Of a stretch of DNA of 34,449 nucleotides, positions 6,479 through 34,449 are shown piece by piece; the first letter of the stretch is position 1, and each line of letters starts with the position of its first letter. The notes below the pieces were generated by a model. That model worked only from the letters and a program-made list of their open reading frames with translations, was not told the DNA's origin and did not search any database. The stretch is from Chrysophaeum taylorii (taxonomy: Eukaryota; Sar; Pelagophyceae; Pelagomonadales; Pelagomonadaceae): positions 1-34,449 of the forward strand of contig JAQMWT010000452.1 of assembly GCA_029834535.1 (NCBI GenBank), given 5' to 3'. Position numbers and translations under genes: made by a program.

Positions 6479-6482
<4 letters not shown>

Positions 6483-6546: not shown

Positions 6547-6550
<4 letters not shown>

Positions 6551-6598
6551 TTGAAGAACAAGACGAAAAAAGACGACGACTTCGAACTGCGAAAAATA

Positions 6599-7816: not shown

Positions 7817-7920
7817 ACTAAGACGCCGGCGGATGCGGCGGCGTGGTCTTTAAGAAAATTGACACAGGCATGAGGAGTTCATTCATGAATTATTCGGCTA
7901 TATGTGTCTTTAAATGTCGA

Positions 7921-8919
7921 CAAGTGCAGGCCAGTAAGTTCACCTAGTCCCAATCTCTAACCCCAGTAAGTTCACCTGGTCCCAGTAAGTTTCATATAAG
8001 TTCACCTGGTCATGAAGTTCACCTAGCTCACACCCACTCCTTTGAGCTCGTCGCTCTCGCCTCCGCCAATCTAAGCTGCTTTGATCCGCACGCGCCGCCA
8101 ACCTTTGAGTTTACTCTAAAACTCCTTTACTCTAAAACCCCAGTATGCTCACCTGGTCCCAGTTTCACCTGGTCACTCACTTCACCTAGTCCCAATCGCA
8201 AACCCCAGTAAGTTCACCTGGCCCCAGTAAGTCCACCTACAGTGCGCGTGTAGACGCCAGGAGGGGGCTTATCGGTATTGCGCAGCACGTGTGGGGTAGG
8301 GTGGAGTCGTCGACCCAGATGAGTTTATCCCCGGGGTTGCCGATCGACAGAGAGCCACGTAGAGCTGGACGTGGCAGAAGACGGGCTTGGGAAAGAGGAC
8401 GCCGACCTAGCGGGGCGTCTGGCCCTGGCTCTTGTTGATCGTTTGGCGTAGGCGGGCCTTAAGCGATACAGGTTGGAGGAGCCTCGGTGACAACGCCACG
8501 ATCGATCATGTATCTGGTACCGTTGCAGTGGCCGTGCGACGGGTCGAGGTTGCGAAGACATTAAGCTCGCGATCAAAGTCAGCATGCCGTTGGTTGTCAG
8601 GGAGTTGAAAACTCTACTGTAAAGAGCGAGGCGTCGTCTTCCGACCCAGCCTAGTCAGCCGAAAAGAACTCCGACGCCTCGTCTCCGGGAAAAAAGGCCG
8701 CGGTCATGCGCGCGTTGTCAGCATCGACAACATCGTTTCGACGGGGCGTGAGAATGGCGCGCTGAAAGAGCCGCCGCGGGTCGTGGAAATAGTCTGCGAG
8801 GTCGCCGTAGACGGCTTGGAGGATCACTGTCTGGCTCGCGGGCCTACCTGATCCTTACCCTAAATCGAGGGACAAACAGACAGACAGACAGACAAACATC
8901 TGTCGATTAGTAGTTAGGA
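7921..8919 (-). mobile_element. Helitron-derived repeat, copy A
   Basis: Bounded by CAAGTGCAGGCCAGTAAG at 7921 and CGATTAGTAGTTAGGA ending at 8919, the same two ends found in copies B-E. From left to right it holds the short GTTCACCTGGTC-type repeats (7921-8240), a decayed helicase segment (about 8240-8830, minus) and a short GACA/GACAAACA tract before the right terminus. Copy B follows without a gap. Confidence 0.8.
8240..8825 (-). pseudogene. Helitron/Pif1-family helicase C-terminal remnant, copy A
   Basis: On the minus strand, split over frames, I see RAILTPRRND, CLRNLDPSHGHCNGTRYMI and QTINKSQGQTPR followed by VFCHVQLYVALCRS. These match the end of Helitron (Pif1-like) helicases, where the conserved strings are LRNLDxxxGLCNGTRL, KSQGQTL and SHGQLYVAxSR. 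Copy A keeps INKSQGQT, closer to consensus than the other copies (ITKSQGQT). Frameshifts and stops exclude function. Confidence 0.8.
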
Positions 8920-14957: not shown

Positions 14958-15404
14958 TTAAGTGACCAAACTTGTTGAGGGTTTACGGTGACCAAACATA
15001 TATGGTGGTTGGAAACTTGACTTTTCCCTACTTTTAAATTCATTTCTCATCGACGCCATGGCGGATCCGATCTCGGAGAGCGCCATCTTGAGGTCGTGAG
15101 TGGATTCCGATCCGCGCGTAGCGTGTGCACTGGGGGCGGCGACTTGCCTCTCCCAGGCTGTCCGGGGTATCAGCTTCTTCTTATCTTTCATAATACGTTT
15201 ATGCATCGCGAGATAATAGGGATTCGGGGTCTTATTGCACATCACTCGATTCCCGTGCTCATCTCTGTCATGTGTGGTCCAGAAATATCCGCAATCCTTG
15301 CACGTCAACCAGCACCATTCTTTGGGGTTGTCTTCGATTCGTACTCCAGGATTCCCTGGCGATTTTCCCCCCGGATTGTCTTTCGTCTGCTGATCCGAGG
15401 CCAT
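14958..15404 (-). pseudogene. Gypsy gag C-terminal zinc-binding segment (remnant copy)
   Basis: Contains CKDCGYFWTTHDRDEHGN followed by R-V-M-C, that is C-x2-C-x6-H-x4-H-x5-C, and then NAHATRGSE-like SAHATRGSESTHD. The right-hand element has the same motif as CKECGFFWSTHDEDEHGN at about 27813-27890. The last residues of the ORF (after about 15010) have no counterpart there, so the element is truncated within this domain. Confidence 0.75.
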
Positions 15405-15934
15405 AGCTCAATCTCCCCGCCCTCGAGCCGGTTTATTGTACTTTGGATTCGAAGATGGCCGCTGTCCTAGTTCCTTTTCTTCCTCTACAAATTTCCGAAA
15501 ATCGTTGTCTAATCGTGTGATAAGCGCCACCGTAGCCTTAAATGTGAGAGATAACTGTCGGGATGGCCGCTCCTCATAGTCCGCACGCGGGTTCGTACAT
15601 CCTTGGACTCTAACCCACTGATCAGGTAGTCGATGATATCGACATCATCCATCGTGCGTGTGGATGTGGAAATAAAAGCCAGCGCTACCGTCTGAAACTT
15701 CGCGCAGTACGTCTGAGCGTGTCGTTTAACGCTCTGTTTGGGAACCGACGCTTGGGTGACCTTCCGGAGCGAGTCGAGGAGCTCCTGCTGCGTACTCGGC
15801 GGCCGGCAGGTCGATCGAAAGTAATCGAAAGTGCGATCACAGTATTGATTATTCAGACGGCGGATCCGACGTACCGCCGCTCCGTGGTCCTTGTCGTCCG
15901 CCTCAAACTTGAGGTAAAAGGACGGAGAGTGCTC
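15405..15934 (-). pseudogene. Gypsy gag core, middle part (remnant copy)
   Basis: No long ORF, but minus-strand frames align with the right-hand gag: RRIRRLNNQYCD (against RRIRRLNKTYCD), STCRPPSTQQELLD and MDDVDIIDYLISGL (against MDDVDILDQLISGL). The frame shifts near 15480. This is the capsid C-terminal region. Confidence 0.65.
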
Positions 15935-16831
15935 TTACTCTTCGCAGAGCTCCTCGTATTTATTCAAATGCTCTTCGAAAATCGGAGCGACCGTGTCACG
16001 CAGGTGCACGGGCAGTAAGTATTGAAGCTGTTCAACCGGAAAGTGCTCCTCCGAAAACGAGCTCATCACCGCTACCGAGTCAAGGTTGAACTGTCGCTGG
16101 TCGCGACCGTCAACCACTAATTTGAAATTGTCGGCTTTCAAGCCGGAGTCAGGGCGGCGGGATCGGCCAAGATTAGCCTTCTCGAATGCGTTCGCAAGAG
16201 TCTCCGATAGTCCCTTGAAAAACTTCACCCCGTCATCTTCGGGTTCCGCCTAATCATCGGTTCCCGCTTCGGTTCTGGAACGGGGTTCGTCCATGGATTC
16301 CATGTTCCTTTCCGGTTCGGTCCGTCTCTCGGGTCGTTCGTGGCTGCTCGGTCGTCGAGCTGCTCGTTCGGCTGCCAACTCGTCCCGATCGCGTCGAAAT
16401 TGGTCGACCTGCTCGCGCAAGGTCTTGGAGGTCTCGAGTTCCTGCTGTAGTGCTTCATTTAACTCGAGGACATCTTGCTGAAGTTCTTGTTCTCTCGCTT
16501 CTGCCCTTTCACGGGCGAATCGTTCAGCAAACCGTTCATTCTCGTGCCGAATTCGTTCGAGGTCCTCTCCAATCCGTCTTCTGTGGTCCGTCACCTGCTC
16601 GGCTGTAGCGAGTTCGCCGCGGTCGGGGGTTGCCGGGCTTACCGGCGAAAAAATAGCAGTTTCTGCCGGTATTTCAGTAGCGTCGACGTTTTCGTCGTCG
16701 CGCATTTCTCCTTCCTCGCGGCCTGGTTCAGCGGCTGCGGGAAGCCTCGGAGGTGGTCCTTCCTCATGCTCGTCAGCGCCCTCCATTCTTTCGATGATGC
16801 TGAATCTCCAGGTCCCGCTGGGATCCGTCAC
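15935..16831 (-). pseudogene. Gypsy gag N-terminal and central part (remnant copy)
   Basis: One frame from an ATG at 16831 to a TAA at 15935, interrupted by a TAG at 16250-16252. The N-terminus is acidic (PAAAEPGREEGEMRDDEN), followed by a long charged helix, likely a coiled coil (LQQELETSKTLREQVDQFRR), then the conserved gag core (KADNFKLVVDGRDQRQFNLD and PVHLRDTVAPIFEEHL). Each part has a counterpart at 26304-27230. Homology across both sides of the TAG shows the stop is a lesion, since the right-hand copy reads through at that point. Confidence 0.8.
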
Positions 16832-16980
16832 TCGTCACTCGTAGCACGCGTTTTAAATCTCAACACGACCCTTCGCCGCCCCAATCCAAATCTGGGAACA
16901 GTGGCTGCGAACTCCTCGTCCGCAGCGAGTAGCTAACTCACACGCTCGACAGCTTCCGCCGTCCTCACGATTTCCCGGGT

Positions 16981-17313
16981 TCACGCGTCGGTATTCCGAA
17001 ACGCGCGTTCGTCGTCTAATCGACGTAAGAAAAAATCAAATTCCGCGTAGAACTCTCCACGCAACTCGGCCTTCTGGAATCTGGCGCGCTTGATCAGGGC
17101 GCGCACGTGGATCCGGACCGCGTAATAGATAGTAGTGCAACGCGGGCACTCGTCCGTCGGCGACCGATATAGTCGCACGATCTCGTATCGTCCACCACTT
17201 GCGGCGGGCCAAAAACGTTCCCGACCCGGGGTGACAGGGGGGGTACTCGCCGACACGCCGGAGACCTCAGTGCTCGAAGTCAATACGGACTCGGGGTCGG
17301 TTACGCTCGCCAC
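16981..17313 (-). CDS. Short conserved ORF upstream of gypsy gag
   Basis: 110 codons preceding gag by about 150 bases. It contains GRYEIVRLYRSPTDECPRC and a basic/aromatic C-terminus (EFDFFLRRLDDERAF). The right-hand element has the equivalent GVYEIVRLYRSPTNEC (25757-25978), then frame damage. Conservation at the protein level in two diverged copies suggests a real element-encoded product or a conserved leader peptide. No known domain is recognised; the CPRC could be half of a metal site. Confidence 0.5.
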   Translation of the reverse strand: MASVTDPESVLTSSTEVSGVSASTPPVTPGRERFWPAASGGRYEIVRLYRSPTDECPRCTTIYYAVRIHVRALIKRARFQKAELRGEFYAEFDFFLRRLDDERAFRNTDA

Positions 17314-17660
17314 AGCACTTGCTCACGCTCATCAAGCCTCCCGACTTGAGGCTGGAGAGTTGATTTATGGTAGCAAGATTTCTCTTCTCGAAAGAAAAGT
17401 GTGACATCACTAGGATGAAATCCCGTCACATCATAAGGAAAGGAAGGAAAGGCGTCCCGTTGAACGGGTATAAGCCTTGAGGAGCGGGGTAAGTCTCAGC
17501 GGACAGGAGTTGCCGCCACACCGGCCGCGCGCCCAAACCTGCCCTAACTTCAGGCCAGCCCAGTGCATGCCCTAAGGCGTAGGCTAATTGATCCCAACGC
17601 CATAGCGTGCAGGACCAGAAACCATCCTTGCCCGTGAAAACGACCTGCGTCTGCGTCATC

Positions 17661-17969: not shown

Positions 17970-19181
17970 TCACGGGTTGGGCGGAGGCATCGCAGTCCCA
18001 TTGCGATGATGCTGGAGATATTTGGTGTTGGATATGTTGAGGAGAGCCTCGGCCTGGAGGATGCGCTGGGCGGCCTTGCGGAGCTCGGCGCGGAGGCGAT
18101 CGCACTCGTTTCGCGTCGCGTCCCGGTCGGCCTGGAGGTCGGCCATCGCTCTCGAAAGGCGGTGGAGATCGTCGCGCGCAGCGACGAGCCGGTGGTCCCT
18201 CGCCGCCTGGTGGAGGTCGGCGAGGGCCGCGTCTCTTGAGAGGAGGTCGGCTTGAAGCATCGCATAGGTCTCGCGGGCCTCGGTGACCTTATTTCGAGCG
18301 GCAGCCTCGACGCTTTGGCGCTGGTCGCGAAAGTAGGCGTCAAGGAGTCTCCGGGCATCGTAGGCCGCGCCCAGCGCCGCTTCGGTGTCCCGGAGGCGTC
18401 GCGCCGTTTCCTCGCTCCTCACAACCTCGGCGGCGAGCTGGGCGGCGGTGCGGTCTCGCGCGTCGGTCGCAGCCCTCGCTTCCCGTCGCGCTCGCTCGAC
18501 GCTTTCGCGCGCGTCAGCCGCGCTGCCCGAAGCGCGTTCGAGGCGGCGGCGCATGTCGCCGAGCTCGTCCTCGAGCGCGCGGCACCGCTTCGAAAGCTCG
18601 ACGACGCGCGCCTCGGCTCTCGCGCGGTCTCGCGCCTCGGCCGCGACTTCCCGTCGCATCGCGGATTCGACGACAGGCGCGTCGTCGCCCGGCGCGCGAC
18701 GCAGCGCAGCCTCCAGGTGCGCCTGGAGCTCGTTCTCCGCCGCGAGCGCCCCAAGCAGCCTCCTGTGCTTGGCGGCGGCCGCTAGCGTCGCCGCGGCGGC
18801 CTCGCACGCCGCACTGGCAGCCCTCCGGTCGTCCTCTTTCGCGCGCTCCGCCCACCGCGCCGCCTGCTGCCGCTCGCGCGCCTCGGCGGCCGCCGCAGCG
18901 CCCAGCCGCCGGAGAGCCTCGTCCTTCAACCGCTGCTCGCGCCCCACACCGGCTCTCAGGCTCTCGACTTGGCGTCGTAACGCCCCGACCTCCGTGCTCT
19001 CGGGCTTGGCGTACTTGCGTTCCAACTGCCGCACCAGCTCCTCCTCCTTGCCGGCGAACTTGGCCAGAATGAGGTCCACCGACCCCAGCTTCTCGGGGTT
19101 GTGGGCCTCGTAGAACGCGACGACCCACTCGCGCAACGACGACGACGACGAGGCCTCCATCAAATAGTCGTCGTCGGCCAT
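17970..19181 (-). CDS. Long coiled-coil protein with conserved N-terminal helical domain
   Basis: 403 codons from an ATG at 19181-19179, intronless and very GC-rich. Residues 16-57 (LREWVVAFYEAHNPEKLGSV then ILAKFAGKEEELVRQLERKY) form a short module of the type W/F-Y-x3-N-P-x-K, I-L-x-K, G-x-E-x-x-L, K-Y. I recall it at the N-terminus of many algal and protist coiled-coil proteins of unknown role. Residues 60-375 are nearly all Ala/Arg/Glu/Leu heptads with few prolines, typical of a long dimeric coiled coil. The tail ends in a short polar segment (MPPPNP). A structural or cytoskeleton/cilium-associated role is plausible but not shown. Long antisense ORFs here are a by-product of the GC-rich codons. 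Confidence 0.8.
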   Translation of the reverse strand: MADDDYLMEASSSSSLREWVVAFYEAHNPEKLGSVDLILAKFAGKEEELVRQLERKYAKPESTEVGALRRQVESLRAGVGREQRLKDEALRRLGAAAAAEARERQQAARWAERAKEDDRRAASAACEAAAATLAAAAKHRRLLGALAAENELQAHLEAALRRAPGDDAPVVESAMRREVAAEARDRARAEARVVELSKRCRALEDELGDMRRRLERASGSAADARESVERARREARAATDARDRTAAQLAAEVVRSEETARRLRDTEAALGAAYDARRLLDAYFRDQRQSVEAAARNKVTEARETYAMLQADLLSRDAALADLHQAARDHRLVAARDDLHRLSRAMADLQADRDATRNECDRLRAELRKAAQRILQAEALLNISNTKYLQHHRNGTAMPPPNP

Positions 19182-19366
19182 CTCAGGGATGGTTACTATC
19201 AGCGGTGCTAACTGGAGTCATGCGGCGGGGAGGCTAAACCCAATAAACCCAAGAGGATCTTTGAGGAAGCTATGACACTTACCCCTGCACCACGTGTCCA
19301 GTATACCTACGTCATCCCCTTATCGCTAGTCTAACGCCCATTCTTCCAATTGTAACATGGTAGCAG

Positions 19367-20494
19367 GTGTTCGTTTCCATTGGTCCTCTCGACAAAAATC
19401 GTGGTCTTCCTTCTCCTGCACCCACTCTTTCCGCCCCTCATGGCATCCATGTCGCATTCCCGCACACCCTCCTCTCTCCTGGCCTTGGTGACAAACGGAC
19501 TCTTTCGGATCATGCCCTTGAGCAGGTTGGTTACGATTGTCATACGATTCAGGCTGTTACTACTCATCCGCAACGAATTTTACGTCACCGTCAAACGCAT
19601 CACGTTATTCCCATGCTTCGTCGCTGTGGTCTTCTTTTGACCGTCTGCTGGATCGGCAATACGACCGCTGCGCCCTACGCGGACTTCGTTTCACCTTTTG
19701 TGGCATTTTCTTCTTGCCCTCGCGTACATGACCCTTCTGCGTTTCCCGTTGTGTCTCAACGCACTCAACTTACCTTCGACCTTTGGCATGCTCGTCTTGG
19801 TCATTATAGTCCCTCTTATATCCGACGTTTGTCTTCTCTCGCTGTTGGCGCACCGCTTTTCCCCAGCTCCGTGTCGCTTTCTTTTTATCCTGCTTGTGCT
19901 CTAGGTAAAATGCATGCTGCGCATGTTGGCCAACGTAAAGCACATGCCTCCACTTCCACCTCGCTTCCTGCCTCCGAGCCTTTGTCCCGTCCACGTGCCG
20001 TTGCGCCCTATCTTATTATCCACGCCGATCTCATGTTCACGGGCGTTCCTTCTTTCATTTATCAAGACCGTGCCATCCTTACGTTTGTCGATGATCATAC
20101 GCGCCGCCGCACACGTTATTTTGCTCCACGACACGATGCACTTACGAACGCTCGTCAACTCGAACTTTTTCTGTCTACCGTGGCTCGCCCATTTGGATAT
20201 CGTATCGCCCTCATCTACACCGATCGTGACCGCTCTCTTATGGACCAATTCGAAACCTTCTGTCTGGGCAACAACATCTCCCTCAAACGGGCTCCTGTTG
20301 CTCAGTCCAAAACTTCACAGGCGCACGCTTTTTCTGGTGTTGTGGAACGCTCTCATCGCGAAACTGCTGATATTACTCGCAGCTCGACGAGTTGGTTCTC
20401 AGTCACATCGCGGTCTCCTCGTCGCATGGCGACAAGCTTGATGGTCACTCTCCGCCGACCGACCTTTCGGCGCTCCTCGTCTACAGGCCCGTGA
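19367..20494 (+). pseudogene. Copia integrase with gag-pre-integrase zinc region
   Basis: LWHARLGHYSP is the H-x4-H half of the copia GAG-pre-integrase finger. The cysteine half reads YPACALGKMH, where the canonical C-x2-C-x-x-G-K has lost its first Cys (Tyr). The DDE core is visible as IIHADLMFTG (D), LTFVDDHTRR, LIYTDRDRSLM (D) and FSGVVERSHRE (E). After about 20380 the frame becomes non-integrase and ends at 20494. Upstream, LSDHALEQVGYDCH resembles the copia segment between protease and integrase. Confidence 0.85.
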
Positions 20495-20567
20495 TTCCGG
20501 ACTGGCTCCTGTCGGTCCGGCCTGGCTCCCATGCTCGGGAGAGGTCTGAAGTTAGTTAGTTAGTCTT

Positions 20568-21050
20568 TTGGTGCATGCGCACCGTCCACCTGATTTTTGG
20601 CGTTGGGCCATGGAAACAGCTGACTTCATCTCCGAGCGCATGCCAAACGCCTCTAACCCTGGTTACATGACGCCATATGAAATGCTACACGAGACTCTGC
20701 CCCGTGTCGATTTTCTTCGTGTTTGGGGCTGTCCTGCTGCAATTCTTACTGGCGACAAATGGCCTACCAAAGCTATAACAGGTATCTTCATTGGGTATCC
20801 CTCTGCCGGACCTGGCTATCGCATATTGCTTCAACGCTCCACTGGTCCGGTCCCGTCATCCATACTTCGATTGACGTTGTTTTTGACGAAATTTTTGCTA
20901 TGCGTAAGTCTCTGTCCTCCCAACCCCTTCCTCCTCCTCTTGTGGATTCTCGTTTTCCTGACTTATTTTATTATGACCCTCGTTTGTCTTCCGCCGTTGC
21001 TCCCTAGTCTCCTGTTTTTGATGCTCAGGAGCCGGCCTTATCGGGACTGA
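20568..21050 (+). pseudogene. Copia integrase C-terminal region
   Basis: AHRPPDFWRWAMETADFI, then TPYEMLHETLPRVDFLRVWG and CPAAIL, with IFIGYPSAGPGYRI, is the conserved copia post-core segment (canonical T-P-x-E, L-R-x-x-G-C, G-Y). An overlapping frame (20850-21007) holds HTSIDVVFDEIF, matching the usual V-x-F-D-E box, so one indel lies near 20850. A second lies between 20380 and 20568. Confidence 0.8.
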
Positions 21051-21255
21051 TCACCCCAGAAACAATACCACAACCGTCAACGGACAATACGAAACGTGCA
21101 CCATTACGTCGAGCCAAAAGGGGCCGACCGCGCAAAGTCGACCAAAGCGCATTACCAAACACTCAATCATCGAACTTCCATTCTGGCGTTTGTCCACAAC
21201 GCAATGTCGATTCTGTTTCCTCCTGTCACAATGTCGATTCTGTTTCCTCCTGTCA
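21051..21255 (+). other. Copia linker with AT-hook-like motif and 27-bp tandem repeat
   Basis: In one frame the linker between integrase and RT reads PLRRAKRGRPRKVDQS, containing the RGRP core and flanking Lys/Arg of an AT-hook DNA-binding motif. It is followed by an in-frame duplication of 27 bases (21202-21228 and 21229-21255) giving NVDSVSSCH twice. An AT-hook-like motif could aid DNA targeting; its role is inference. Confidence 0.5.
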
Positions 21256-21332
21256 CTCTTTGTATGTCTCTTATTCTAGCTTTCGTTTGTTGGTTCATTA
21301 TGTCTTCCTTCCCCTTTGTCTAGCTCACACCC

Positions 21333-22457
21333 TTGTTGGTTCCCGATGCACATGTTCAGTACTCTGCTTCCGAAGAAACCTCTCAGTATTCATACATTGA
21401 CGACTCGGCCATTACTTCCACCCATTTACGCGAAGAATTGGCTCAGACAAATCCTGAGCGTCCTGGCTGGTTGCAAGCCATCGCCAAAGAATATCATTCC
21501 CTTGGTCAGCTTGGTTGCTGGGATGTTGTTCGCGTTCCTTTGGCTTTTTCTGGCAACATCTGTAACCTCAAGTGGATCCTCCGCAAGAAGTATGACTCTG
21601 GCCGCTTCAAGTCGTACAAGGCTCGCCTCGTTGTCCGCGGTTACATCCAGGTTCACGGCATTGATTATCACGACACCTACTCGCCGGTTGCTAACATCGT
21701 CACAATACGTCTCTTTCTAACCTATGTTGCTGTTCATGACTGCGATTTGCACAAGTTGGACGTCAGCTCCGCTTTTATCCAAGCTCCCATTGACGAAGAC
21801 ATCTATGTCTGGCCACCCGAAGGCTATGCTCCTCGCCAACCCACCGATGGTTCCAAAATCGTTTACAAGCTCCGTCGCTCTTGGTATGGTTGCAAACAAG
21901 CTTGTCGTATTTGGCGGCTTTATTTGGAACGCTTCCTTGTCAATGATTGTGGCTTCGTCCGCGGATCTGGTGGCACTTGCAATTACAAGCTCGTGCTTAA
22001 TTCTACCGTTGTCCCACGTCTCGTTCTTGTCGTTGATGATCTTCTTGTGGCGCACCCTCGTCATTGCCTTGGCCATTACCAAGCCTTCTTCCTACGTTTC
22101 CGAACCATCACTGACGTCAACGAGCTTGATCTCACCACTTACGTTGGTCTTCGCATTACGCGTGACCGCCCTCGACGCACGCTCACTCTTGACCAATCCC
22201 ATGCTATCCGTGAAATCCTTACCGAACATCGCTCCATCAACAGTAAACCCGAACTGACTCCCGCTCCCAAAGGTCTTCATCTTTCTGCGGCTGATTGTCC
22301 TGCTCCTGGTTCTCCAGATCACATCTTCATGGCGCGCATCCCTTTTCGTCGTATTGTTGGCTGTGTTCTATTTATTTCCATTATGACTCGCCCTGATATC
22401 ACTTGGTCCGTCAATCAGTGTGCGCGTTTTTCAGGGAGTTCAAAACTCGACTCTTGA
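21333..22457 (+). pseudogene. Copia reverse transcriptase, truncated before RNase H
   Basis: The 374-codon ORF shows WLQAIAKEYHSL, CNLKWILRKKYDSGRFKSYK, ARLVVRGYIQVHGIDYHDTY, LHKLDVSSAFIQAPIDEDIY (first catalytic Asp 143), SWYGCKQACRIW and LVLVVDDLLVAH (catalytic VDD 234-236). It then gives YVGLRITRD, FRRIVGCVLFISIMTRPDI and NQCARF, the RT connection. The last eight codons (SGSSKLDS) are encoded by the Helitron repeat, which joins at about 22433. No internal stop is present in the RT core. Confidence 0.9.
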
Positions 22458-22665
22458 GAGCGAGGCGTCGTCTTCCGACCCAACCTAGTCGGCCGAAAAG
22501 AACTCCGACGCCTCGTCTCCGGGAAAAAAAAGGCCGCGGTCATGCGCGTTGTCAGCATCGACAACATCGTTTCGACGGGGCGTGAGAATGGCGCGCTGAA
22601 AGAGCCGCCGCGGGTCGTGGAAACAGTCTGCGAGGTCGCCGTATTCGGCTTGGAGCATCAATACC
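22433..22665 (-). pseudogene. Helitron helicase remnant, copy F (partial)
   Basis: Only the first third of the family's helicase piece is left. The minus-strand equivalent of RAILTPRRNDVV lies near 22605-22550. The start CAGGGAGTTCAAAACTCGAC at 22433 corresponds to an internal position of the other copies. Confidence 0.7.
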
Positions 22666-22710
22666 TGGGCTCGTGGGCCTACATGATCCTTACCCTAAAT
22701 CGAGGGACAG

Positions 22711-23380
22711 ACATCCTTCATGCTCCCCACACACACCCCCCCCTCTTAGCAGTCGACATTTAAAGACAGACAACCCCCCCCCTCTTAGGAGTCGACATTT
22801 AAAGACAGACAACCCACACACACCCCCCTCTTAGCAGTCTACATTTAAAGACAGACACCTCATACCCCACAAACCCACCCACATCCTTCATGCTCCCCAC
22901 ACACACCCCCCCCTCTTAGCAGTCGACATTTAAAGACAGACAACCCACCCACATCCTTCATGCTCCCCACACACACACCCCCTCTTAGTAGTCGACATTT
23001 AAAGACAGACAGACAGACCCACAAACCCACCCACATCCTTCATGCTCGCCACACACACCCCCCTCTTAGCAGTCGACATTTAAAGACAGACAGACATTTA
23101 AAGACAGACAGACAGACCCACAAACCCACCCACATCCTTCATGCTCGCCACACACACCCCCCTCTTAGCAGTCGACATTTAAAGACAGACAGACATTTAA
23201 AGACAGACAGACAGACCCACAAACCCACCCACATCCTTCATGCTCGCCACACACACCCCCCTCTTAGCAGTCGACATTTAAAGACAGACGGACATTTAAA
23301 GACAGACAGACAGACCCACAAACCCACCCACATCCTTCATGCTCGCCACACACACCACCCTCTAAGCAGTCGACATTTAA
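22711..23380. repeat. Minisatellite, 99-bp unit (with shorter variants)
   Basis: ACATCCTTCATGCT recurs at 22711, 22881, 22951, 23033, 23132, 23231 and 23330. The last four starts are spaced exactly 99 bases apart. Each unit contains CCCACAAACCCACCC, CATGCTCGCCACACACAC, CTCTTAGCAGTCGACATTTA and one or two AAAGACAGACAGACA tails, so every unit carries a seed of the GACA repeat that follows. A period of 99 keeps a reading frame open, but no protein is implied. Confidence 0.95.
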
Positions 23381-25350
<1,970 letters not shown>

Positions 25351-25355: not shown

Positions 25356-25547
25356 TAGTAGTTAGGACATACTGAAAAACTGATACTGTAACTGAGCTGG
25401 CGACAACGCCTTCTCTTCGAGAGGGCTAGTTTTTCAACCAAAGGCTGGTAATAGTAGTTAGGACATACTGAAAAACTGATACTGTAACTGAGCTGGCGAC
25501 AACGCCTTCTCTTCGAGAGGGCTAGTTTTTCAACCAAAGGCTGGTAA
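25356..25547. repeat. 96-bp tandem duplication containing the Helitron terminus
   Basis: Two near-identical 96-base units, 25356-25451 and 25452-25547, both starting TAGTAGTTAGGACATACTG and including CTTCTCTTCGAGAGGGC, which holds a small inverted repeat (CTCTTCGAGAG). Because each unit begins with the last bases of the Helitron end, the duplication occurred after insertion. Confidence 0.92.
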
Positions 25548-26303
25548 TTAACGCTGTCGCGGCAACTCCTGACCGCTAAGGCTTACCCTCTCTTCTCGAG
25601 GCTTTATACGCGTTCAACGGGACGCCTTTCCCTACTTTCCTAGTGACATCATACCTCTCCCTTGTGAGAAGCATTCTTGCAGCATACTTGTAGCATTCTT
25701 GCTATCATATACCATCTCTCCATCTTGTTGAGAGGCTTGGTGAGCGCGAGCAAGGTGTGTGGCGAGCATATCCGACCCCGAGTCCGTGTTTTCCTCGTTC
25801 AGTGAGGTCTAGGACGAGTCGGCGAGTACCCCCTTTGTCACCTGGGGGTCGGGAGTGGTTTTTCTGTGCCGCCATACGTTGTGGAGTATACGAGATCGTG
25901 CGACTATATCGGTCGCCGACGAACGAGTGCCGCCGTACGTATTGTATTACGTGGTCCGGATTTGCACGTGTGCCCTGATCAAGCACGCGGAGTTCCAGTG
26001 GACCGGTTTGCGTTGAGAATATACGCGGACTTTGTTTTGTTCGTGCGTCCCGAGAGACGACGAACACGCGTGCGAGTTGGAAATCGCAGCGCACTCACCC
26101 GGGAATTGATTTTGGTATAGCTGAACGGCGGAAGCTGTTAGCGAGTGGGATCGCTACCCACGGGCATTTTGGATTGTCAGCGGATCGGAAATACGTGTGT
26201 GTTGTTTTTACAGCGACAGACAGCGTTGTTGTGATCAACGTGCATTACTTCGAGTGATCGGATCCGGACTTGTTTCGAGATTCCTCATCGACATTGATAC
26301 AGT
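25548..26303 (+). other. Leader / 5' LTR-derived region of the gypsy element with decayed upstream ORF
   Basis: Matches the minus strand of 17530-16900 in order and spacing: CGGCAACTCCTG, GTTCAACGGGACGCCTTTCC, CCGACCCCGAGTCCGT and CGGCGAGTACCCCC. The upstream ORF GVYEIVRLYRSPTNEC (within 25757-25978) terminates early compared with the remnant copy, so it is broken here. No primer-binding site was identified. Confidence 0.6.
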
Positions 26304-27140
26304 ATGGATACAGACGCAGACGTGCGTGAGGAAGAATCTCCTCCAGTGCTTCCCGCCGCCCCTGAGATAGGCCGCGAGGAAGGTGAATTACGAGAGGCAG
26401 AGCCAGTCGACGTTGCTGACTTGCCCACTGACGTACCTCCAGATACCGCCCTTTTTTCGCCGTTGAGTCCAACGACCCCGGACCGTGGCGAGCGTGTTAC
26501 GATTGAGCGCTGATCCGTAGCCCGAAGTCGACTTCGTGAAGACCTCGAACGGAGACGTCGCGAAAATGAACGATTAGCTGAACGTTTTGCCTGTGAAAGG
26601 GCTGAAGCGAAAGAGGATGCGGCTCGACGAGAAGTTGATATGCTCAATGATGCCTTACAGCAAGAGATTGAGACCTCGAAGACCCTACGTGAAGAGGTTG
26701 AACGATTTCGTCGTGAGCGAGATGAATTGTTAGCCGAACGTACGCGTCGTGAGAGTAGCCGCGAACGACCCGTGAGTCGACCCGAACCGGAAACGCCCGT
26801 GAGGCGGCCTGAACCGGAAAGGAACACTGAAACGGGGGATGAACCTCCGCCCCGAGTCGATACGGAGACTGAGGGTAGGGCGGAAACTGAAGATGAAGGT
26901 ACGAAATTTTTACGGGGATTATCACGGGGATTATCGCAGACGGTTGCAGACGCCTTCGAGAAGGCCAACTTGAGCGGGTCTCGTCGCCCCACTTCCAGTT
27001 TGAAGCCTGACAACTTCAAACTCGTCATCGACGGCCGAGATCAACGGCAGTTCAATCTGGATTCGGCGGCGGTGATGCATACTTTAACAGATGACCATTA
27101 CTCGGTCGAGCAATTACGTAATGCCGGTGCACTTACGTGA
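26304..27140 (+). pseudogene. Gypsy gag, N-terminal and central part
   Basis: Starts at an ATG at 26304. The acidic start (LPAAPEIGREEGELREAE) is interrupted by a TGA at 26511-26513 but continues in frame: ENERLAERFACERAEAKED, LQQEIETSKTLREEVERFRR (coiled coil), then KPDNFKLVIDGRDQRQFNLD. The frame fails at about 27115, where the remnant copy continues with PVHLRDTVAPIFEEHL, which here is found one frame away. Gag forms the virus-like particle in the cytoplasm. Confidence 0.85.
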
Positions 27141-27782
27141 TACCGTTGCACCAATTTTTGAGGAGCATTTGCGGAAATACGAGGAGCTCTGCGATGAGGT
27201 ACCGCACGGTCCGTCATTTAATTTGAAATTGGATGCTGACGACGAAGAGCATGAAGCCTCGATTCGGCGCATCCGTCGTCTTAATAAGACGTATTGTGAT
27301 AAAATTCTGGATTATTTTGGATCGACTTGCCGACCTCCGAGCACGCAGCAGGAGCTGCTCGATAAGCTGCGGACGGTCATTCAGTCTTCAGTTCCGAAGT
27401 AGTCTGGGGAACGGCACGCACAAACGTGTCGTACCAAATTTCAAAGTGAGGCTTTGGCCTTTTGTACCGTGTCCAGCCGCACGATGGATGACGTTGATAT
27501 CCTCGACCAGCTTATCAGTGGTTTGGCGTCCAAGAGTTACGGACCCGTGTGCGGACTATGAGGAGCGGACACCCGGATAGTTGCTTGACTTTTAAGTCGA
27601 TGGCGGCGCTTATTACTCGACTCGATAACGACTTTCGAAAGTTGATGGAGGAGGAGAAGGACCAAGGGCCTCCCAATCCGAAATCAAATAAACCGCCGCG
27701 AGGGCGGGGAGGTCGAGCTATGACTTCCGATCAACAGCTAAGCAAGATGCGGATAAACCGTCTGGGAATATGGCTCCGCTGA
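27100..27782 (+). pseudogene. Gypsy gag, capsid C-terminal part
   Basis: The first frame (27091-27540) gives PVHLRDTVAPIFEEHLRKY, RRIRRLNKTYCDKILDYFGS and MDDVDILDQLISGL, with a TAG at 27400-27402 in place of the Gln codon expected from the remnant copy. After about 27540 another frame continues with MRTMRSGHPDS and the basic PPRGRGGR to 27782. Confidence 0.75.
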
Positions 27783-28567
27783 TCTTACGAGATCCTTCTT
27801 GGTGGTGCAAGAAGACGTGCAAGGAGTGCGGATTCTTCTGGTCCACCCATGATGAAGATGAACACGGAAATCGCGTGGTTTGCAACCGCGATCCGGACCG
27901 TTAACACTGTGCGATGTGGAAGCGTATTCGGAAACATAAAAAGCAACCCATATCGCGTTCCGATTGGGAGAAGCGTGATGATGCATCTAATGCGCACGCC
28001 ACGCGCGGATCGGAGACTACTAATGAAATCCAAACGGCCCTCACCGAGCTTGGAACCACAATGGCGACCATGGTGAGCGAGGTCGGAGGTATCAAAGATA
28101 GCAAGTCGTCTCCTACACGACAGCGAGACGGACGATCACCTTCTAGACGATCGTCGCGCCGACACCGAAGTAAGAGCTTTGATCAAAAGGCCAATAGTCC
28201 TACATCAAGCCCGAGCCCCCGCCGTCGCCGCCATAGCCGGAGCTCTAGTCGCAATTCGCGCCGGCGCAGACGTCATCGACAGCGCGATGACGAATATGAC
28301 GGAGGCCGATATCATGATAGTTCGGGACATTCGAGCGCAACTTTCGCGTTCCAATCTCTATGCGAAGCGCCGCCATCGTCGGGAGTTGTCTTTCACCCGA
28401 CGGCGCGCCCCGCCCGAGTCTCCGATGATGTTGCCGATGCCGCTGTGACGAGCAGCCATCGCTTGCAACAGGAGCAAAATACCACCAACGCTCGGATCGT
28501 TCGGTGGCCTTCTACATCGCATGTGGAAGCAATATCAGGTGCAACTTGGGATTCTCCGCGCTACTAG
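27783..28567 (+). CDS. Gypsy gag C-terminus: Cys/His motif and Arg/Ser-rich nucleic-acid-binding tail
   Basis: CKECGFFWSTHDEDEHGN with the following R-V-V-C repeats the C-x2-C-x6-H-x4-H-x5-C pattern of the remnant copy. A TAA at 27902-27904 follows. The long open part (27914-28567) then gives NAHATRGSETTNE and an Arg/Ser-rich region (SPSRRSSRRHRSKS, SPRRRRHSRSSSRNSRRRRR), probably the nucleocapsid RNA-binding tail. The frame ends with TAG at 28565-28567 and resumes without shift into the protease ORF, so one amber codon separates gag from pol. Confidence 0.65.
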
Positions 28568-28597
28568 GAAGACTCAGACTCAGAGACCGACGAACCC

Positions 28598-30085
28598 ATG
28601 CCGCAGGTTCCAGTGTCCCCCCATTCGTCAATGTGCATGTCTTGCAGGGCAGTTCACGATGGTGACGTTAGACCTTTTGAGTTGACGTCGGGGGTGACGT
28701 ATTCTTTTCCTACGGGGCCCCCCGAAACTGTATTAGCCGATGTTTTAGCCGATACAGTTTTGGTCGCAGCAGAGCAGACCACAGCGGCGCCGATGGAGGA
28801 GAAGTTGACGGGAATGTCCGATTTGATGGACGAGAAACGAAAATTATCAGAGGAGATAAAGGAGGAAGTATATGTGCCTCCGATTGAGAAGTGTCAGAAT
28901 TTGTTGCCAGCGAAACTGGGGAATGAGGAAGCAGCCGAAGCGGCGAGCGCCAATATAGATTCAGAGGCGAGATGTGGGACGCCAGATATGGCAGCGGTGA
29001 CGATGCAGATGCCGGGCGATGCGAAACCGGAGATACGATGTCATCACACTGCACTTTCGCCGAGCGATGGGGAAAAGATCGAGCAAGACCTCATCACCAT
29101 CGGTTGTCTGGACCCTGGTACGCATACGTTCATAGTTGGTCATATTTACAGACGACAAGACGGGCCGAAGTTCGCAACGACTTTAGGCGTGGATGGAATG
29201 GCTGATGTCTCCTATATTTGTCGTGGGATGGTCGAAAAACTGGCAAAGGATAGCATCATCCTTGACCGGGGCGATCTTCCAGTCGAGCGCACCCTGTACG
29301 GGTCAGGATTGGATAAGACGACTATCCACAAATGGGTCGCATTGCGGATTGCGCTTGCGGACGACGTGGCCGTTCCAGTTGTTGCTATTGTGGCCGATAC
29401 TAATCATATATTTTTGCTGGGAGCGCGCGATATTAGGGTGTTGGGAGCCATAGTGGACTACCCGCGAAGTCGCATGGCGTTTCTCCGCACACAAGTCGCT
29501 TATGGGCGCAAGAAGTTAAAGGTGCAGGATCGACGAGTCGATTCTCCGATTTTGACGTTCAGAACAACTTATGACGAGCGCAATCCCGTGGTAGTTCAGG
29601 TTTATGGGCAACAGCACCATGCGATGCAAAAGAGCCTGTGCACAGTTGAGCACCGAGTATACGCTCGCTTGTGCAAGATTGAAGACCTCCAGCGTCCACC
29701 GCCGAAACGAGCGGGAGCTTCGACGACTTGGGGAGTCCCTCCAGTTACGCCTTCTCAAAGTTCGAACAGCGATGCCTATGAAGTGATAGCCTATGCTGCG
29801 CGCACGATGAAGGTCGAGCCTGGGCGCACTTACTGCGTGCCAGTCGCTCTTTCAGAGCCCATGGAAACCGGGCAAGTTTTCGTTGCTACGTCTTCTGGAT
29901 ACGAGCAACTTGGGGTAGTCGATGGAATTCGTTCTTCTCCTGAGGATCATGACAAGTTCGCAGCTCGAGTGGCGATCTCCTTTACCCAGGATGTGCCGAC
30001 CGTGATTACTCAAGGTGAAGTTCTCGCTTTGGGCGATATTGTTCGTTTTGATGATGAACTGAATGTTGAAACGGTCGACGATTAA
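28598..30085 (+). CDS. Gypsy Pol N-terminus with retropepsin-like protease, 495 codons
   Basis: An intact ORF in the same frame as the gag tail. Residues 1-165 are an acidic linker. The protease region has FATTLGVDGMADVSYICRG (residues 192-210), where D199 occupies the place of the catalytic Asp but D-T/S-G has become D-G-M. The second strand IFLLGARDIRVLGAIVDYP (271-289) matches the usual ILG-x-D-x-L region. Residues about 400-490 are beta-rich (VEPGRTYCVPVAL ... TVITQGEVLALGDIV) and resemble the beta domain often found before RT in gypsy elements, similar in pattern to dUTPase-like folds. The ORF overlaps the methyltransferase frame by 16 bases, equivalent to a -1 shift. Confidence 0.7.
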   Translation: MPQVPVSPHSSMCMSCRAVHDGDVRPFELTSGVTYSFPTGPPETVLADVLADTVLVAAEQTTAAPMEEKLTGMSDLMDEKRKLSEEIKEEVYVPPIEKCQNLLPAKLGNEEAAEAASANIDSEARCGTPDMAAVTMQMPGDAKPEIRCHHTALSPSDGEKIEQDLITIGCLDPGTHTFIVGHIYRRQDGPKFATTLGVDGMADVSYICRGMVEKLAKDSIILDRGDLPVERTLYGSGLDKTTIHKWVALRIALADDVAVPVVAIVADTNHIFLLGARDIRVLGAIVDYPRSRMAFLRTQVAYGRKKLKVQDRRVDSPILTFRTTYDERNPVVVQVYGQQHHAMQKSLCTVEHRVYARLCKIEDLQRPPPKRAGASTTWGVPPVTPSQSSNSDAYEVIAYAARTMKVEPGRTYCVPVALSEPMETGQVFVATSSGYEQLGVVDGIRSSPEDHDKFAARVAISFTQDVPTVITQGEVLALGDIVRFDDELNVETVDD

Positions 30086-31488
30086 CGAAGGATGGTGAAG
30101 CCGAATCTGACAAGGCTAACCTATCGTTCACTGTTTCGGTCGCAAGCCATCTGACTCAAGGCGATGCGGCTCCCGAACCGATGCTTTTGAGCTCGGTGCA
30201 GAAGGCATCTCCTTCTGCTGATAAGAATAAGAATTCTCGTCAAGAATCGCTCGGTAACGACGATTTCGACCGACGAACCGACGAGGAGGAAAAGAAATGC
30301 CGAGAAGTTACAGAAGGCGAGATTCGCCGAAGGTTTGAAAAAGTCCACTGGGTGCCGATCACGTATCGCAAGGTCGTGATGCTCTTTAGCGGCGCCGGAG
30401 GAAGTACTTTAGGACTGCAACGAGCGAACGAGTTGTGCGGGACGTCGTTTCGAGTCGTCCTTGCTCTTGACTCTTCAACAGCTGCCAACACGATTCATCA
30501 GAAGAATTTTCCGAAGATACCTGTGGTACAGCACACGCTCTGCGGACGATATGACTCGACCCTCCGATTGATCAAGGCTTATTTGCCTGAAGCGGAATGG
30601 TCATCGTCGACGTGTGTAGCGTCTCCACCCTGCGTTCATTCAGCACTCTGCAACTTGACATCCAGAGATGTTGGCAGGGGAGTTACGGCCACTAATTGGA
30701 CGATGAAGCTGTGCAAAACGGCTGGCTTCATGATGTGGCTGATTGAACAGGTGGCGTCCATTATTTCTTATATAGCGCGCTTGCACCCTTACGTGTACGT
30801 CGTCAATTTTCATGATATTATGCCCACTTTGATGAGCTCTCGCGTGCGATTCTTGGTTTCCAGTCACCCACTGCACTTGCAAGAGGCTCCGAACACATGT
30901 GCGAATATGCAACAAAAATTTGCTGCAGCTTTAGGTTACGCTCATGAACGCCACCTGCTCCAGCGGAAGAATCTCGGCTCGTCCCGAGAAGCAACAGATA
31001 CGGCATACACCGTTACGCGAGTTCCTCTTCGTTTGGGACCGCATCGCTCGGACACTCGGCCTTTGATTCTCGAGATGACGGCCGAGTTGCTAACGATGCC
31101 GCTGGACCATGATTGGGCTAGCTTGTCTAAGACAGATTCGTTCAAACGTTTAGCGTCTGTCGTCCCTCTAGACACTCTTGCGATTTTAGCAGTCGATCTG
31201 CACAACTCCGTGATCAGAGGTTTCCGCCAAAGTGGCGAAGTCCTGCCGACCGCGTTGAGCCCGACAGATCGATCCTTTGAGCAGTGTTTGCGAATTTCCG
31301 ACACCACCCTTCGTCACGTACAGATTCCGCTGTTAAATACGCGTACTCGTGTCGTTAAGTGGGTGTCAAACGATGATCTCCAGGATCCCACTAAATGGGA
31401 ACCGCCAGATGCCCCTATGCTTCCGCTTCCAACAGATGCGCCTGGGACGGCTCATGTTTTTTCCGCTGCCCCCCCCCCCGACACCTGA
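30070..31488 (+). CDS. C5-cytosine DNA methyltransferase domain in gypsy Pol
   Basis: The frame is open from 30070; its first ATG is at 30181, and numbering below starts there. Motif I is VVMLFSGAGGSTLGLQ (65-80), SAM-ribose strand VVLALDSS (92-99), motif IV CVASPPC with catalytic Cys151 (codon 30631-30633), motif VI LIEQV (187-191, for ENV). Motif VII-VIII is VVNFHDIMPTLMSSRVRF (207-224, keeping both arginines of Q-x-R-x-R but not the Gln). Motif IX is RPLILEMTAELL (293-304) and motif X FKRLASVVPLDTL (321-333). Order and spacing are those of a full, if short, Dcm/DNMT enzyme. After motif X a Pro-rich linker runs to a C9 tract (31472-31480), where the frame stops. No PHD, bromo-adjacent or chromodomain partner is seen. 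Confidence 0.88.
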   Translation, partial: NGRRLTKDGEAESDKANLSFTVSVASHLTQGDAAPEPMLLSSVQKASPSADKNKNSRQESLGNDDFDRRTDEEEKKCREVTEGEIRRRFEKVHWVPITYRKVVMLFSGAGGSTLGLQRANELCGTSFRVVLALDSSTAANTIHQKNFPKIPVVQHTLCGRYDSTLRLIKAYLPEAEWSSSTCVASPPCVHSALCNLTSRDVGRGVTATNWTMKLCKTAGFMMWLIEQVASIISYIARLHPYVYVVNFHDIMPTLMSSRVRFLVSSHPLHLQEAPNTCANMQQKFAAALGYAHERHLLQRKNLGSSREATDTAYTVTRVPLRLGPHRSDTRPLILEMTAELLTMPLDHDWASLSKTDSFKRLASVVPLDTLAILAVDLHNSVIRGFRQSGEVLPTALSPTDRSFEQCLRISDTTLRHVQIPLLNTRTRVVKWVSNDDLQDPTKWEPPDAPMLPLPTDAPGTAHVFSAAPPPDT

Positions 31489-31766: not shown

Positions 31767-33050
31767 ATGATGCTGAGCCACTGCGTGCAATACGCGTGGG
31801 CCTTTTTTTATCCGATTATGAGACCCGTGGACTCGCCACCGGTTTCTCTACGATTTAAAGACGCAAACCCACGACCGATCAAGATGACGCCTTATAGGTT
31901 GACGCCAGCAAAGCTCGAGTGTCTCGGAAATCAGGTCACTGAGTGGTGTCGCGATGGAGTCATCTGACCGGCGAACTCTCCGTGAGGATTCCCTGTACTG
32001 ATGCTGCCTAAGAAGGGAGCAGAGGCCGGGACGTCGAATGCTTGTCGTGCTGCAGTTGACTTGCGTCAGCTCAATGATCAACTGGTCAATGACAGTTGGC
32101 CGAATATTCGTCAAGATGATGCTTTGGCTTTTCTTGCCATGCGCCGTTGGCGGACGTGCATTGATATTCGATGGGGTTATCATAACCTACGTTTGGACGC
32201 CGCTGCTCAGGACGCCGTTACGATGGTTAGTCCACTTGGAGCCCATAGTTTCTTGCGCCTGCCTCTAGGAGTAAAAACAGCAGGAGCTCTCTTTTGTAAG
32301 CAGATGGCTAGCGATTTGTCCACCTGGATGTATAAGGACTTGGTCGCGTTTGTCGACGATATTATGATGGGATCGGATGAACTCCATCGACATTTACAAG
32401 TTTTGATTGAAGTGTTGTGCCATCTAGCACAGCGAGGATATAGTGGACGAACTTCGAAGTTCCACCTCCTCAAGGATGAAATCGAGTTTTTGGGACATAT
32501 TTCGACTCCGGAAGGCTTGAAGCCGAATCCCAAGACGTTAGAAGCGCTGCGGCAGATGCCGACTCCTGGTACGTTGCCTAATACGTCCCCGAAGACCCAG
32601 ATTCGATCTTTCATTGGCATGAGCAACTATTGCCGCCGATATGTGAAGAATTATTCGAAGATTGTGGAGCCGCTTAGGCGATTGTGTCTTGAAGGCGTTA
32701 AGTTTGAGTGGACGCCTGAGTGCCAAAAGGCATGGGACACGCCCATCGAAGCTTTGGTGGACTCTCGCGGAGTTTATCATCCTGACTACGATCTTCCTTT
32801 TCAGATCCGCTCGGATGCTTCCAAGGATGGTCTGGGCGCGTATCTTTTTCAGCTCGTGGAAGTCAAGGACGAAACCGGTAAGGTGACTCGAGAGGAACGA
32901 GTAACTGAGTATTGGAGCCGAGCTGTGCCGAAAGATATGCGGAACTATGAGCCTCGCCGGCTAGAGCTACTGGCGGTTATTCTTTCTCTTGAGCATTTCC
33001 CGCTCTTATATCGAAGGTCACAAGACGATCCTTGAAACGGATCATCGCAA
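31767..33050 (+). pseudogene. Gypsy reverse transcriptase and N-terminal RNase H
   Basis: RT begins KMTPYRLTPAKLECLGNQV and GVI-stop-PANSP-stop-GFPVLM, where the gypsy consensus has Arg and Trp at the two TGA codons (31965-31967, 31983-31985). It then runs clean from 32001: AVDLRQLNDQL, WRTCIDIRWGYHNLRL (catalytic Asp), FLRLPLGVKTAGALF, LVAFVDDIMMG (catalytic FVDD, 117-120 of that ORF), IEFLGHIST and the connection IRSFIGMSNYCRRYV. RNase H starts with PFQIRSDASKDGLGAYLFQL (Asp) and NYEPRRLELLAVI (Glu). At about 33005 a frameshift moves the IEGHKTILETDH strand to another frame; a compensating shift near 33050 restores it. Confidence 0.9.
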
Positions 33051-33686
33051 ATGACGTTCTTACGAAAGGCGAAGCACTCGTCTGGGCAGTTGGCTCGATG
33101 GGCGATGCGGCTCGCCAATTTTGATCATGAATTGGGTTACAAACCAGGGAAGTCGCCGGGAATGAGTATCCCTGACTGTCTCTCTCGCAATCCTATAGAT
33201 CATGTCATCGTGACGGATGAGTTAGGTGAACCCTTGAACCACGCGTATCTAGTGTGCCAAGAACTCCCTCGCCCTGTCGATGATGAAGGAGTACCTTTAC
33301 CTGGGTGCCATGTCATTCTGTCGTTTGTTACGACTGAGTTGCCTGTGGAGGAAGAGGAAGAAGACCTCGATGATCCGATGCAATTGGTCACGTCTCATGC
33401 TACGAGACAACGTCGGAAGCAACGTCTGCAGACCCAGCCTAGTATTTTCAGTGATGCCGATGATTACCAAGAGTACATCGACAAGATTCCGGATAATTTG
33501 ACTTTTGACTTGCACCCGATGATAGTCGCACCCCGAACCTTACGGACGCGCATCATCCGATTGTACCATGACACACCTCTCAATGGTGGTCACATGGGTC
33601 GTCAAAGTACAGTGCAGTCGATACTTGGACGTTTTTGGTGGCCCCACATGTCTAATGAGTGGGTGCTTATATTGCTGGTTGCATAG
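33051..33686 (+). pseudogene. RNase H C-terminus and integrase zinc-finger domain of the gypsy element
   Basis: Begins MTFLRKAKHSSGQLARWAMR and YKPGKSPGMSIPDCLSR (the usual YxPGxxNxxADxLSR with the catalytic Asp region decayed), then an acidic linker (EEEEEDLDDP). It continues into the integrase N-terminal HHCC region: YHDTPLNGGHMGRQSTVQSI and FWWPHM give the two histidines. The Cys pair is lost to a frameshift at about 33680, just after the expected region. Confidence 0.85.
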
Positions 33687-34439
33687 TGGGCAAGAAAGCT
33701 GCGTACGCATGAACCAATGAGAGCAGGTCTTCTTCAGCAACCGGTGTATGATGGTGATTGCGCCGTCTTTGTATGGATGTTCGGACTTTGCCCAGTGCTG
33801 GTCCCGAGAATATATTTGATATCTTTTTGATTCCATTTTCTCATTTCTTGATTCTCGACGTACTACACCATAAGACTGCTGAGTCAATCCTCGAGTCTTT
33901 GTCGCGAATATATTACTCAAAGGTATCTACCTCACGAGGATTCGTACCGACAATGGGAAGAGTTCGTCAACAAGTTGATGGAAGAGTTTTGTCATCTCTT
34001 TCAATGTTCGGTATAGTACCACGATTCCGGATCATGCTCAGGCTATTAATCCTGCGGAAAGGGTCAACCGCCTTTCTATTCAAGACTTTCTCTCCTAATT
34101 CGATTTCCTCTCTCTCTGAATCACGGGTGTGTTCCAAACCCCGCATAATCGGACTGGCACGAATTAGCGGAGACATGCTTTTTGCTACCAATCGTAGTTA
34201 TGCCGGGACCCACTCAGATTTCTCCCACCTCCATGCTACGTCTGACACGGCAGCCTCTATTGCCAACAGACTTAAATACGATCAGGATTGATGTCCCCGC
34301 TGCCGAAACTCCGCCGCTTTTTTTCCCCCCCAGTCGAGTTGTGGCGGAGACTCGCGAGAGATTTGAAAGTCTACTACCACTACGTGAACGAACGCTCGCT
34401 AGGATGGCTCTTCGTAAAAAACGTCGCGCCTACCAATGA
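33687..34439 (+). pseudogene. Gypsy integrase core and C-terminal region, multiply frameshifted
   Basis: Pieces in different frames match an integrase: GLLQQPVYDG near 33730, a decayed strand region FSHFLILDVL with TAESILESLSRIYY near 33840-33920, EFVNKLMEEFCHLF near 33965, and AINPAERVNRLSIQDFL near 34050-34100, where the Glu belongs to the DDE triad (consensus GQTERVNR). The last frame (34182-34439) has RQPLLPTDL and a charged helix (TRERFESLLPLRERTLARMA), as in the segment after the core. No chromodomain is visible before the window ends. Confidence 0.7.
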
Positions 34440-34449
34440 ACACGGACCA

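Follow-up and report, generated by a model that had tools for sequence, protein, structure and literature searches.

C5-cytosine methyltransferases (C5-MTases) encoded by retrotransposons are known from dinoflagellates (Symbiodinium) and from a charophyte Gypsy element, as described in the available part of PMC5890265; the sequence-only reading of the present locus had named these precedents, and that paper bears them out. The charophyte element, KnitGypsy-Dnmt3 of Klebsormidium nitens (de Mendoza et al. 2018, PMC5890265), resembles the one described here in that the C5-MTase lies within the Pol polyprotein of an LTR Gypsy element and is intronless, multi-copy and under purifying selection, with Ka/Ks <0.2 given for KnitGypsy. 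Tested in yeast, KnitGypsy-Dnmt3 showed no activity, which its authors regard as inconclusive; the MTase domains encoded by DIRS elements of Symbiodinium carried out de novo CG methylation there (PMC5890265). Methylation of the element's own cDNA has already been proposed in the same paper for the DIRS types. SymbioDIRS-Dnmt3 and SymbioLINE-Dnmt of Symbiodinium are likewise retrotransposon C5-MTases of high copy number; however, their elements are of the DIRS and LINE classes, unlike the present Ty3/gypsy element, and Symbiodinium Copia elements are described in the available text as free of any DNMT domain (PMC5890265). A later paper that cites this work speaks of DNMT3 previously reported in 'LTR Copia and DIRS', possibly a slip for Gypsy (PMC12344493, available part). 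Another transposon-encoded DNA methyltransferase is the ParB-MTase protein of Sola1-1 in the brown alga Ectocarpus, but Sola1-1 is a DNA transposon and its enzyme is predicted to be an N4-cytosine or N6-adenine, not a C5, methyltransferase (PMC12477816, available part). No retrotransposon C5-MTase of an ochrophyte or haptophyte appears in the available text of PMC5890265, PMC9998398, PMC12344493, PMC10449503, PMC12477816, PMC3145265 and PMC6338049, a coverage outside which preprints and most subscription papers lie.

The window, i.e., the whole stretch of 34,449 nucleotides analysed here, carries a Ty3/gypsy copy. As judged from domain and motif matches, a divergent C5-MTase is shown to lie within the polyprotein of this element, between a protease-like region and the reverse transcriptase (RT). 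The features are as follows.

15048..17523, minus strand: older fragment of a related element, with long terminal repeat (LTR) and Gag-like part (blastn)
25554..25950, plus strand: 5' LTR of the window copy, 3' boundary approximate (blastn)
26304..28567, plus strand: Gag-like region by position, frames broken, boundaries approximate (blastn, 90-94% to L046, L047, L048, L051)
28568..30085, plus strand: ORF of 505 aa, protease-like region by position (LDxG, VDG and LLGxRD strings)
30070..31488, plus strand: ORF with the C5-MTase domain, 472 aa (PF00145 match)
about 30352..31239, plus strand: C5-cytosine methyltransferase domain, motifs I to X
30385..30402, plus strand: motif I, FSGAGG (SAM binding), invariant in 42/42 rows
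30622..30633, plus strand: motif IV, SPPC, Cys codon 30631-30633, Cys in 42/42 rows
30739..30753, plus strand: motif VI, LIEQV in the window and LIEQE in the family (canonical ENV), Glu in 41/42 and Gln in 40/42 rows
30835..30852, plus strand: motif VIII, SSRVRF (RxR), both Arg in 42/42 rows
31057..31101, plus strand: motif IX, RPLILEMTAELLTMP (residue counts, hhalign, MAFFT)
31150..31167, plus strand: motif X, LASVVP, canonical GN replaced by AS (residue counts, MAFFT)
31986..33035, plus strand: RT and RNase H ORF (PF00078, E 1.3e-13; PF17919, E 9.1e-18)
33036..33686, plus strand: ORF with integrase H2C2 zinc-binding domain (PF17921, E 5.9e-11)
33758..34449, plus strand: decayed stretch after H2C2, integrase core by position, cut off by the contig end (blastn, 83-84%)

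Along most of its length, the window copy shares about 90-95% identity with related copies of its subfamily. It is decayed: its protease-like, MTase and RT parts lie in different frames (28568-30085, 30070-31488 and 31986-33035), and the contig end truncates its 3' side. From 33506 onward it matches L047, L048, L050 and L051 at 83-84% (blastn), and the putative integrase core gives no Pfam match in 33758-34288. Gag and protease remain putative assignments made by position, the protease also by weak strings: no Pfam match above cut-off was obtained in the one Gag-like ORF tested (27905-28564), and Pfam found no protease match in the ORF 28568-30085, where the LDxG, VDG and LLGxRD strings are kept in 32-35 of 36 copies. 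The match of the window LTR to L050 spans 25554 to 25942, and in related copies blastn detects a repeat close to either end, e.g., at 60-181 and 9780-9896 in L047. Terminal direct repeats of L047 and L051 are 86-89% identical over the parts present; the remaining 10-kb stretches from subfamily 2, none of which includes both ends, gave no such repeats. At up to 3 mismatches, a TGGTCCGG-like primer-binding-site string follows the LTR in 6/15 sequences (window, L046-L049, L051) and in 0/6 subfamily-2 loci. The older minus-strand fragment is 67-75% identical to L046, L047, L048, L051 and the window's own LTR (blastn).

Less decayed copies show the organization of the element. L042 is a single 3063-aa frame, in which Pfam places RVT_1 (1997-2161), RNase H (2256-2368), H2C2 (2552-2610) and rve (2628-2721) after the MTase. 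L041 is a single frame of 3067 aa, shared by its MTase and RT places according to search positions, not Pfam. Other copies are split in two frames, e.g., L044 (1840 and 1209 aa). The order of RT, RNase H and integrase in L042 and the LTRs of L047 and L051 thus place the family in Ty3/gypsy. The earlier claim of an MTase between protease and RT of a gypsy element stands for its position and for RT, RNase H and H2C2, found by Pfam; its protease is a putative assignment by position and weak strings. Likewise, the single polyprotein that had been claimed exists in L041 and L042, where MTase and RT share one frame, and not in the window, whose parts lie in different frames.

The frame 30070-31488 is open over 472 aa and contains all six motif strings that had been quoted from it. 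Comparison with C5-MTase profiles confirms that it holds a divergent C5-cytosine methyltransferase domain. PF00145 scores 21.5 bits (E 1.8e-4) against the whole ORF, just below the cut-off of 22, and 23.5 bits, above it, against the trimmed domain (30352-31239); 16/16 aligned gypsy copies match (best E 7.9e-7), so the proposed PF00145 check came out positive. The match in the window protein spans the motif I stretch only. The whole L042 polyprotein reaches 18.4 bits at residues 1443-1498, below the cut-off, and NCBIfam dcm gives 16.9 bits with the window ORF (E 0.0039), far below its cut-off of 100.65. When compared by hhalign with 82 prokaryotic and phage C5-MTases, the domain scores 35.4 against 27.7 for the best of 60 column shuffles and 15.7 when reversed; this match sits in the motif IX-X half and has a probability of only 31%, the hhalign probabilities of the gypsy domain being modest (31 and 56%). 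An unguided MAFFT alignment brings motifs I, IV, VI, VIII, IX and X into line in order, and a seeded run puts motif VIII elsewhere. A profile built in-house from 84 C5-MTases detects the domain in 9/9 gypsy proteins, with E between 7.7e-6 and 5.2e-5 in a set of 20 sequences, and reversed sequences have a best E of 1.7; the profile from the 82 non-host C5-MTases alone gives only E 0.0015 to 0.014.

The identity of the domain to 41 bacterial C5-MTases, M.HhaI among the known systems compared, is just 18-23%. No homologue at E 0.001 was found in a protein collection, where one search scored the best 7994 candidates by shared words, and a viral-contig scan based on the aligned domain yielded 27 matches to the pattern, none of them a relative. 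A structure model built with an alignment has a pLDDT of 69.5, and all 50 structural matches listed for it are C5-MTases or complexes of one; the alignment consisted of true C5-MTases, these bacterial sequences among them, and so supplied the family, which makes this agreement not independent. The single-sequence model is poor (pLDDT 36).

Residue counts were taken from 42 aligned rows that represent 36 distinct copies, six loci being represented twice. The FxGxG of motif I, the catalytic Cys, the Glu of motif VI and RxR, by which C5-MTases are recognized, are all present; the full ENV and GN signatures typical of active enzymes are absent. EN of motif VI and GN of motif X occur in 84/84 reference C5-MTases, where the gypsy domain has EQ and AS. 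The catalytic Cys is followed by Val (PCV) in place of the Gln of canonical PCQ, and Cys-Val is found in 1/84 reference sequences, which is the host DNMT5. Both gypsy subfamilies show these replacements (EQE for ENV, AS for GN, PCV for PCQ) in all or nearly all copies, and the activity may have been changed or lost with them. In the MAFFT alignment the stretch from motif VI to VIII is short. Hence the 'complete' C5-MTase of the sequence-only reading needs a qualifier: the domain does run through motifs I to X, with three signatures replaced family-wide and this stretch shortened. Its LIEQV is present in the window, but the third place of EQE is E in 40/42 rows and V is private to the window copy, so that the likeness to ENV is partly accidental. 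With the core catalytic residues kept and the signatures altered, the domain is of C5-MTase type; the missing ENV and GN lower the claim of ordinary catalysis, not, on these alignments, that of homology. DNMT3 enzymes have FDGIATG as motif I and SPCN as motif IV. The present domain, in what is apparently a red-plastid alga, has FSGAGG and SPPC at these places and may be of another type than the DNMT3-type domain of the charophyte KnitGypsy (PMC5890265, available part).

The MTase domain occurs at no fewer than 208 distinct places on 169 contigs, some of them allelic; for instance, contigs C10 and C297, of near-equal length, carry a copy at near-equal positions. The place count joins 51 of the best 90 of 1196 candidates scored with the window ORF, all of the best 135 of 998 candidates from the L042 domain, and 46 of the best 150 of 682 from a 100-aa piece, these 46 being absent from the other lists and judged by eye. 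Of 1273 RT candidates, the best 106 matches include 73 with an MTase match up to 2.5 kb upstream on the same strand, so the proposed check for further genomic copies in this order also came out positive; the other 33 have no MTase upstream among the matches listed, and some of these may have lost it. A first pass with 162 MTase places gave 64 linked MTase-RT pairs with gaps of 406 to 879 bp.

Selection was assessed by Nei-Gojobori dN/dS medians over copy pairs within and between the two subfamilies. The MTase core gives 0.239 within subfamily 1 (427 pairs), 0.168 within subfamily 2 (15 pairs) and 0.056 between them (167 pairs). The corresponding values are 0.369 (321 pairs), 0.291 (15 pairs) and 0.033 (152 pairs) for RT-RNase H, and 0.305, 0.298 and 0.119 (167 pairs between) for the protease-like region; integrase gives 0.050 between subfamilies (15 pairs). 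Between-subfamily dS is near 2 and thus saturated, which makes these ratios approximate. The MTase is constrained about as tightly as the replication enzymes of the element.

The non-element PF00145 matches listed comprise so far only a DNMT5 and a DNMT2-like enzyme, a repertoire that is provisional since a six-frame search of the best candidates could miss intron-bearing MTase genes. The host DNMT5 is identified by its match to PDB 7r76 (L032, E 3e-143), an entry listed as Rad8 that has the same sequence as 7r78, titled DNMT5; it had no match in the viral-contig scan. L031 on contig C634 has a full PF00145 match and a motif of DNMT2 type, and is presumably DNMT2-like. It adjoins a chlorophyll-binding protein frame (PF00504) whose best PDB matches are VCPI-6, FCP8 and PCPI-8, and the same contig has a gypsy MTase place at 92143-92442. 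The element thus resides in an algal genome, and the names of these matches suggest a red-line plastid, so the host is apparently a red-plastid alga.

We suggest that the decayed window copy belongs to a high-copy Ty3/gypsy element whose divergent C5-MTase, kept by selection, most likely methylates the element's own cDNA, and that DNMT5 could copy the marks; we assign this reading a probability of about 0.55. Since the frame is shared, the domain would be translated as part of Gag-Pol. It would then be released with Pol and be present where cDNA is made, most likely methylating cytosines of the reverse-transcribed DNA during or just after synthesis. After integration, the host DNMT5 could copy these cytosine marks. 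DNMT5 acts as a maintenance methyltransferase elsewhere.

An alternative that we consider possible, though distinctly less probable, is that the C5-MTase fold was kept and catalysis lost, the domain now binding DNA or cDNA, or acting as a scaffold, within Pol, similar to DNMT3L, which works without catalysis. EQE, AS and PCV, constant or nearly so in both subfamilies, and the shortness of the motif VI-VIII stretch are consistent with this, but a pure scaffold need not keep all of Cys (42/42), Glu (41/42) and both Arg (42/42). RNA cytosine methylation, of the element's genomic RNA or of a primer tRNA, is unlikely. It would fit the best PDB matches of the domain, the DNMT2 enzymes known as tRNA methyltransferases (4h0n, 1g55, 9hgm), yet these are not significant (E 0.035 by sequence, 0.1 by profile), weak and confined to the N-terminal part. 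A CFT-type DNMT2 motif was not seen by eye in the domain, which also differs from DNMT2 in its replaced ENV and GN and short motif VI-VIII stretch; DNMT2 proper as its identity is not supported by these comparisons. An RNA substrate was suggested by the authors for the LINE type (PMC5890265, available part).

The remaining explanations deny either the homology or the linkage. Chance likeness to C5-MTases might account for a whole-ORF Pfam score just under cut-off and limited to motif I, and for the modest hhalign probabilities; it is very improbable, and we reject it, given that Pfam and hhalign detect separate halves of the domain (motif I and motifs IX-X, respectively), that 60/60 shuffles score lower, that PF00145 is found in 16/16 copies and that selection is strong. 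A host MTase gene beside a retrotransposon, or an assembly join, would agree with the broken frames of the window copy only. Copy number and contiguity refute both, with practically no probability left: MTase and RT lie together in the single 3063- and 3067-aa frames, and the 64 linked pairs and the places on 169 contigs repeat the arrangement. Methylation of the element's cDNA is the preferred reading. Two points appear to be new against the available text. The element-borne domain lacks DNMT3-like motifs, and its host is apparently a red-plastid alga that has DNMT5; that genome also contains a second family, in which a Ty1/copia Pol (L054) bears a C5-MTase of its own.

If this is true, retrotransposon C5-MTases are not confined to dinoflagellates and a charophyte but occur in one more lineage of algae, include an enzyme that lacks DNMT3-like motifs and, with the second family, reach into Ty1/copia. 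Two such families suggest that C5-MTase capture is a repeated strategy and no curiosity. A DNMT5 host with this many element-borne MTase places would allow a clean test of the idea that mobile elements set marks and the host maintains them. The broader proposal that Ty3/gypsy and Ty1/copia elements of one alga each captured a different C5-MTase and together form its main source of de novo cytosine methylation, copied by the host, is tentative and on balance doubtful. It builds on a non-element repertoire in which DNMT5, a maintenance enzyme, and a DNMT2-like enzyme are so far the only members.

The second family emerged from a PF00145 search of the genome, which gave at least 57 places, all above cut-off (best 123 of 474 candidates scored): L031, L032 and 55 others, nine of which were read (L033-L040 and L054) and belong to one family by tblastn. 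In L054, a Gag-like frame accompanies a Pol frame of 1952 aa, which contains PF00145 at 349-475 (E 1.1e-7), a weak rve match under cut-off at 1016-1110 (E 0.006) and the Ty1/copia RT, RVT_2, at 1686-1933 (E 1.6e-38); RT and integrase are known from L054 only, the other eight loci being too short. When compared directly, profile against profile, the MTase domains of the gypsy and copia families gave no match, so common descent of the two captures is without support. The copia-family MTase has PCQ and the EN of ENV in 9/9 loci, a median dN/dS of 0.154 (36 pairs) and an hhalign score of 57.8 against the 82 C5-MTases (probability 93%); its motif I is degenerate, AGGLHQEG.

Upstream of the long terminal repeat (LTR) of the methyltransferase-bearing Ty3/gypsy copy lie two tandem arrays and a duplicated 96-bp unit, and the window holds further retroelement parts:

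15048-17523, minus strand: older fragment of the same element group, LTR and Gag-like
19364-22454: an additional Ty1/copia element with matches to gag_pre-integrs, rve (weak), SH3_retrovirus and RVT_2
22994-23412: 99-bp tandem array, ahead of the AGAC array
23381-25350: array of 492.5 perfect copies of the tetranucleotide AGAC
25356-25548: 96-bp unit, two copies, after the AGAC array and adjoining the LTR
25952-25967: candidate primer-binding site TGGTCCGGATTTGCAC, directly 3' of the LTR

The candidate primer-binding site is common to 6 of the 15 sequences searched, and the AGAC array contains several open frames on both strands.

No PF00145 match was found in the seven ORFs scanned around the Ty1/copia element of the window (18287-22760). 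A Ty1/copia-type Pol of 1952 aa with its own C5-methyltransferase domain, placed after a protease-like region and before the integrase, is encoded at another locus, L054 (G000:C96:60500-69500, 2597-8452 within the locus). Among the matches listed, 55 PF00145 places, nine of them read, may be members of this family.

As judged from sequence, L032 (G000:C621), which matches PDB 7r76 with 482 bits, is the host DNMT5, and L031 (G000:C634), adjoined by a chlorophyll-binding protein frame, is a predicted DNMT2-like enzyme. Elsewhere in the window, the ORF at 6599-7849 (minus strand) carries an EF-hand pair (PF13499, E 2.9e-10).
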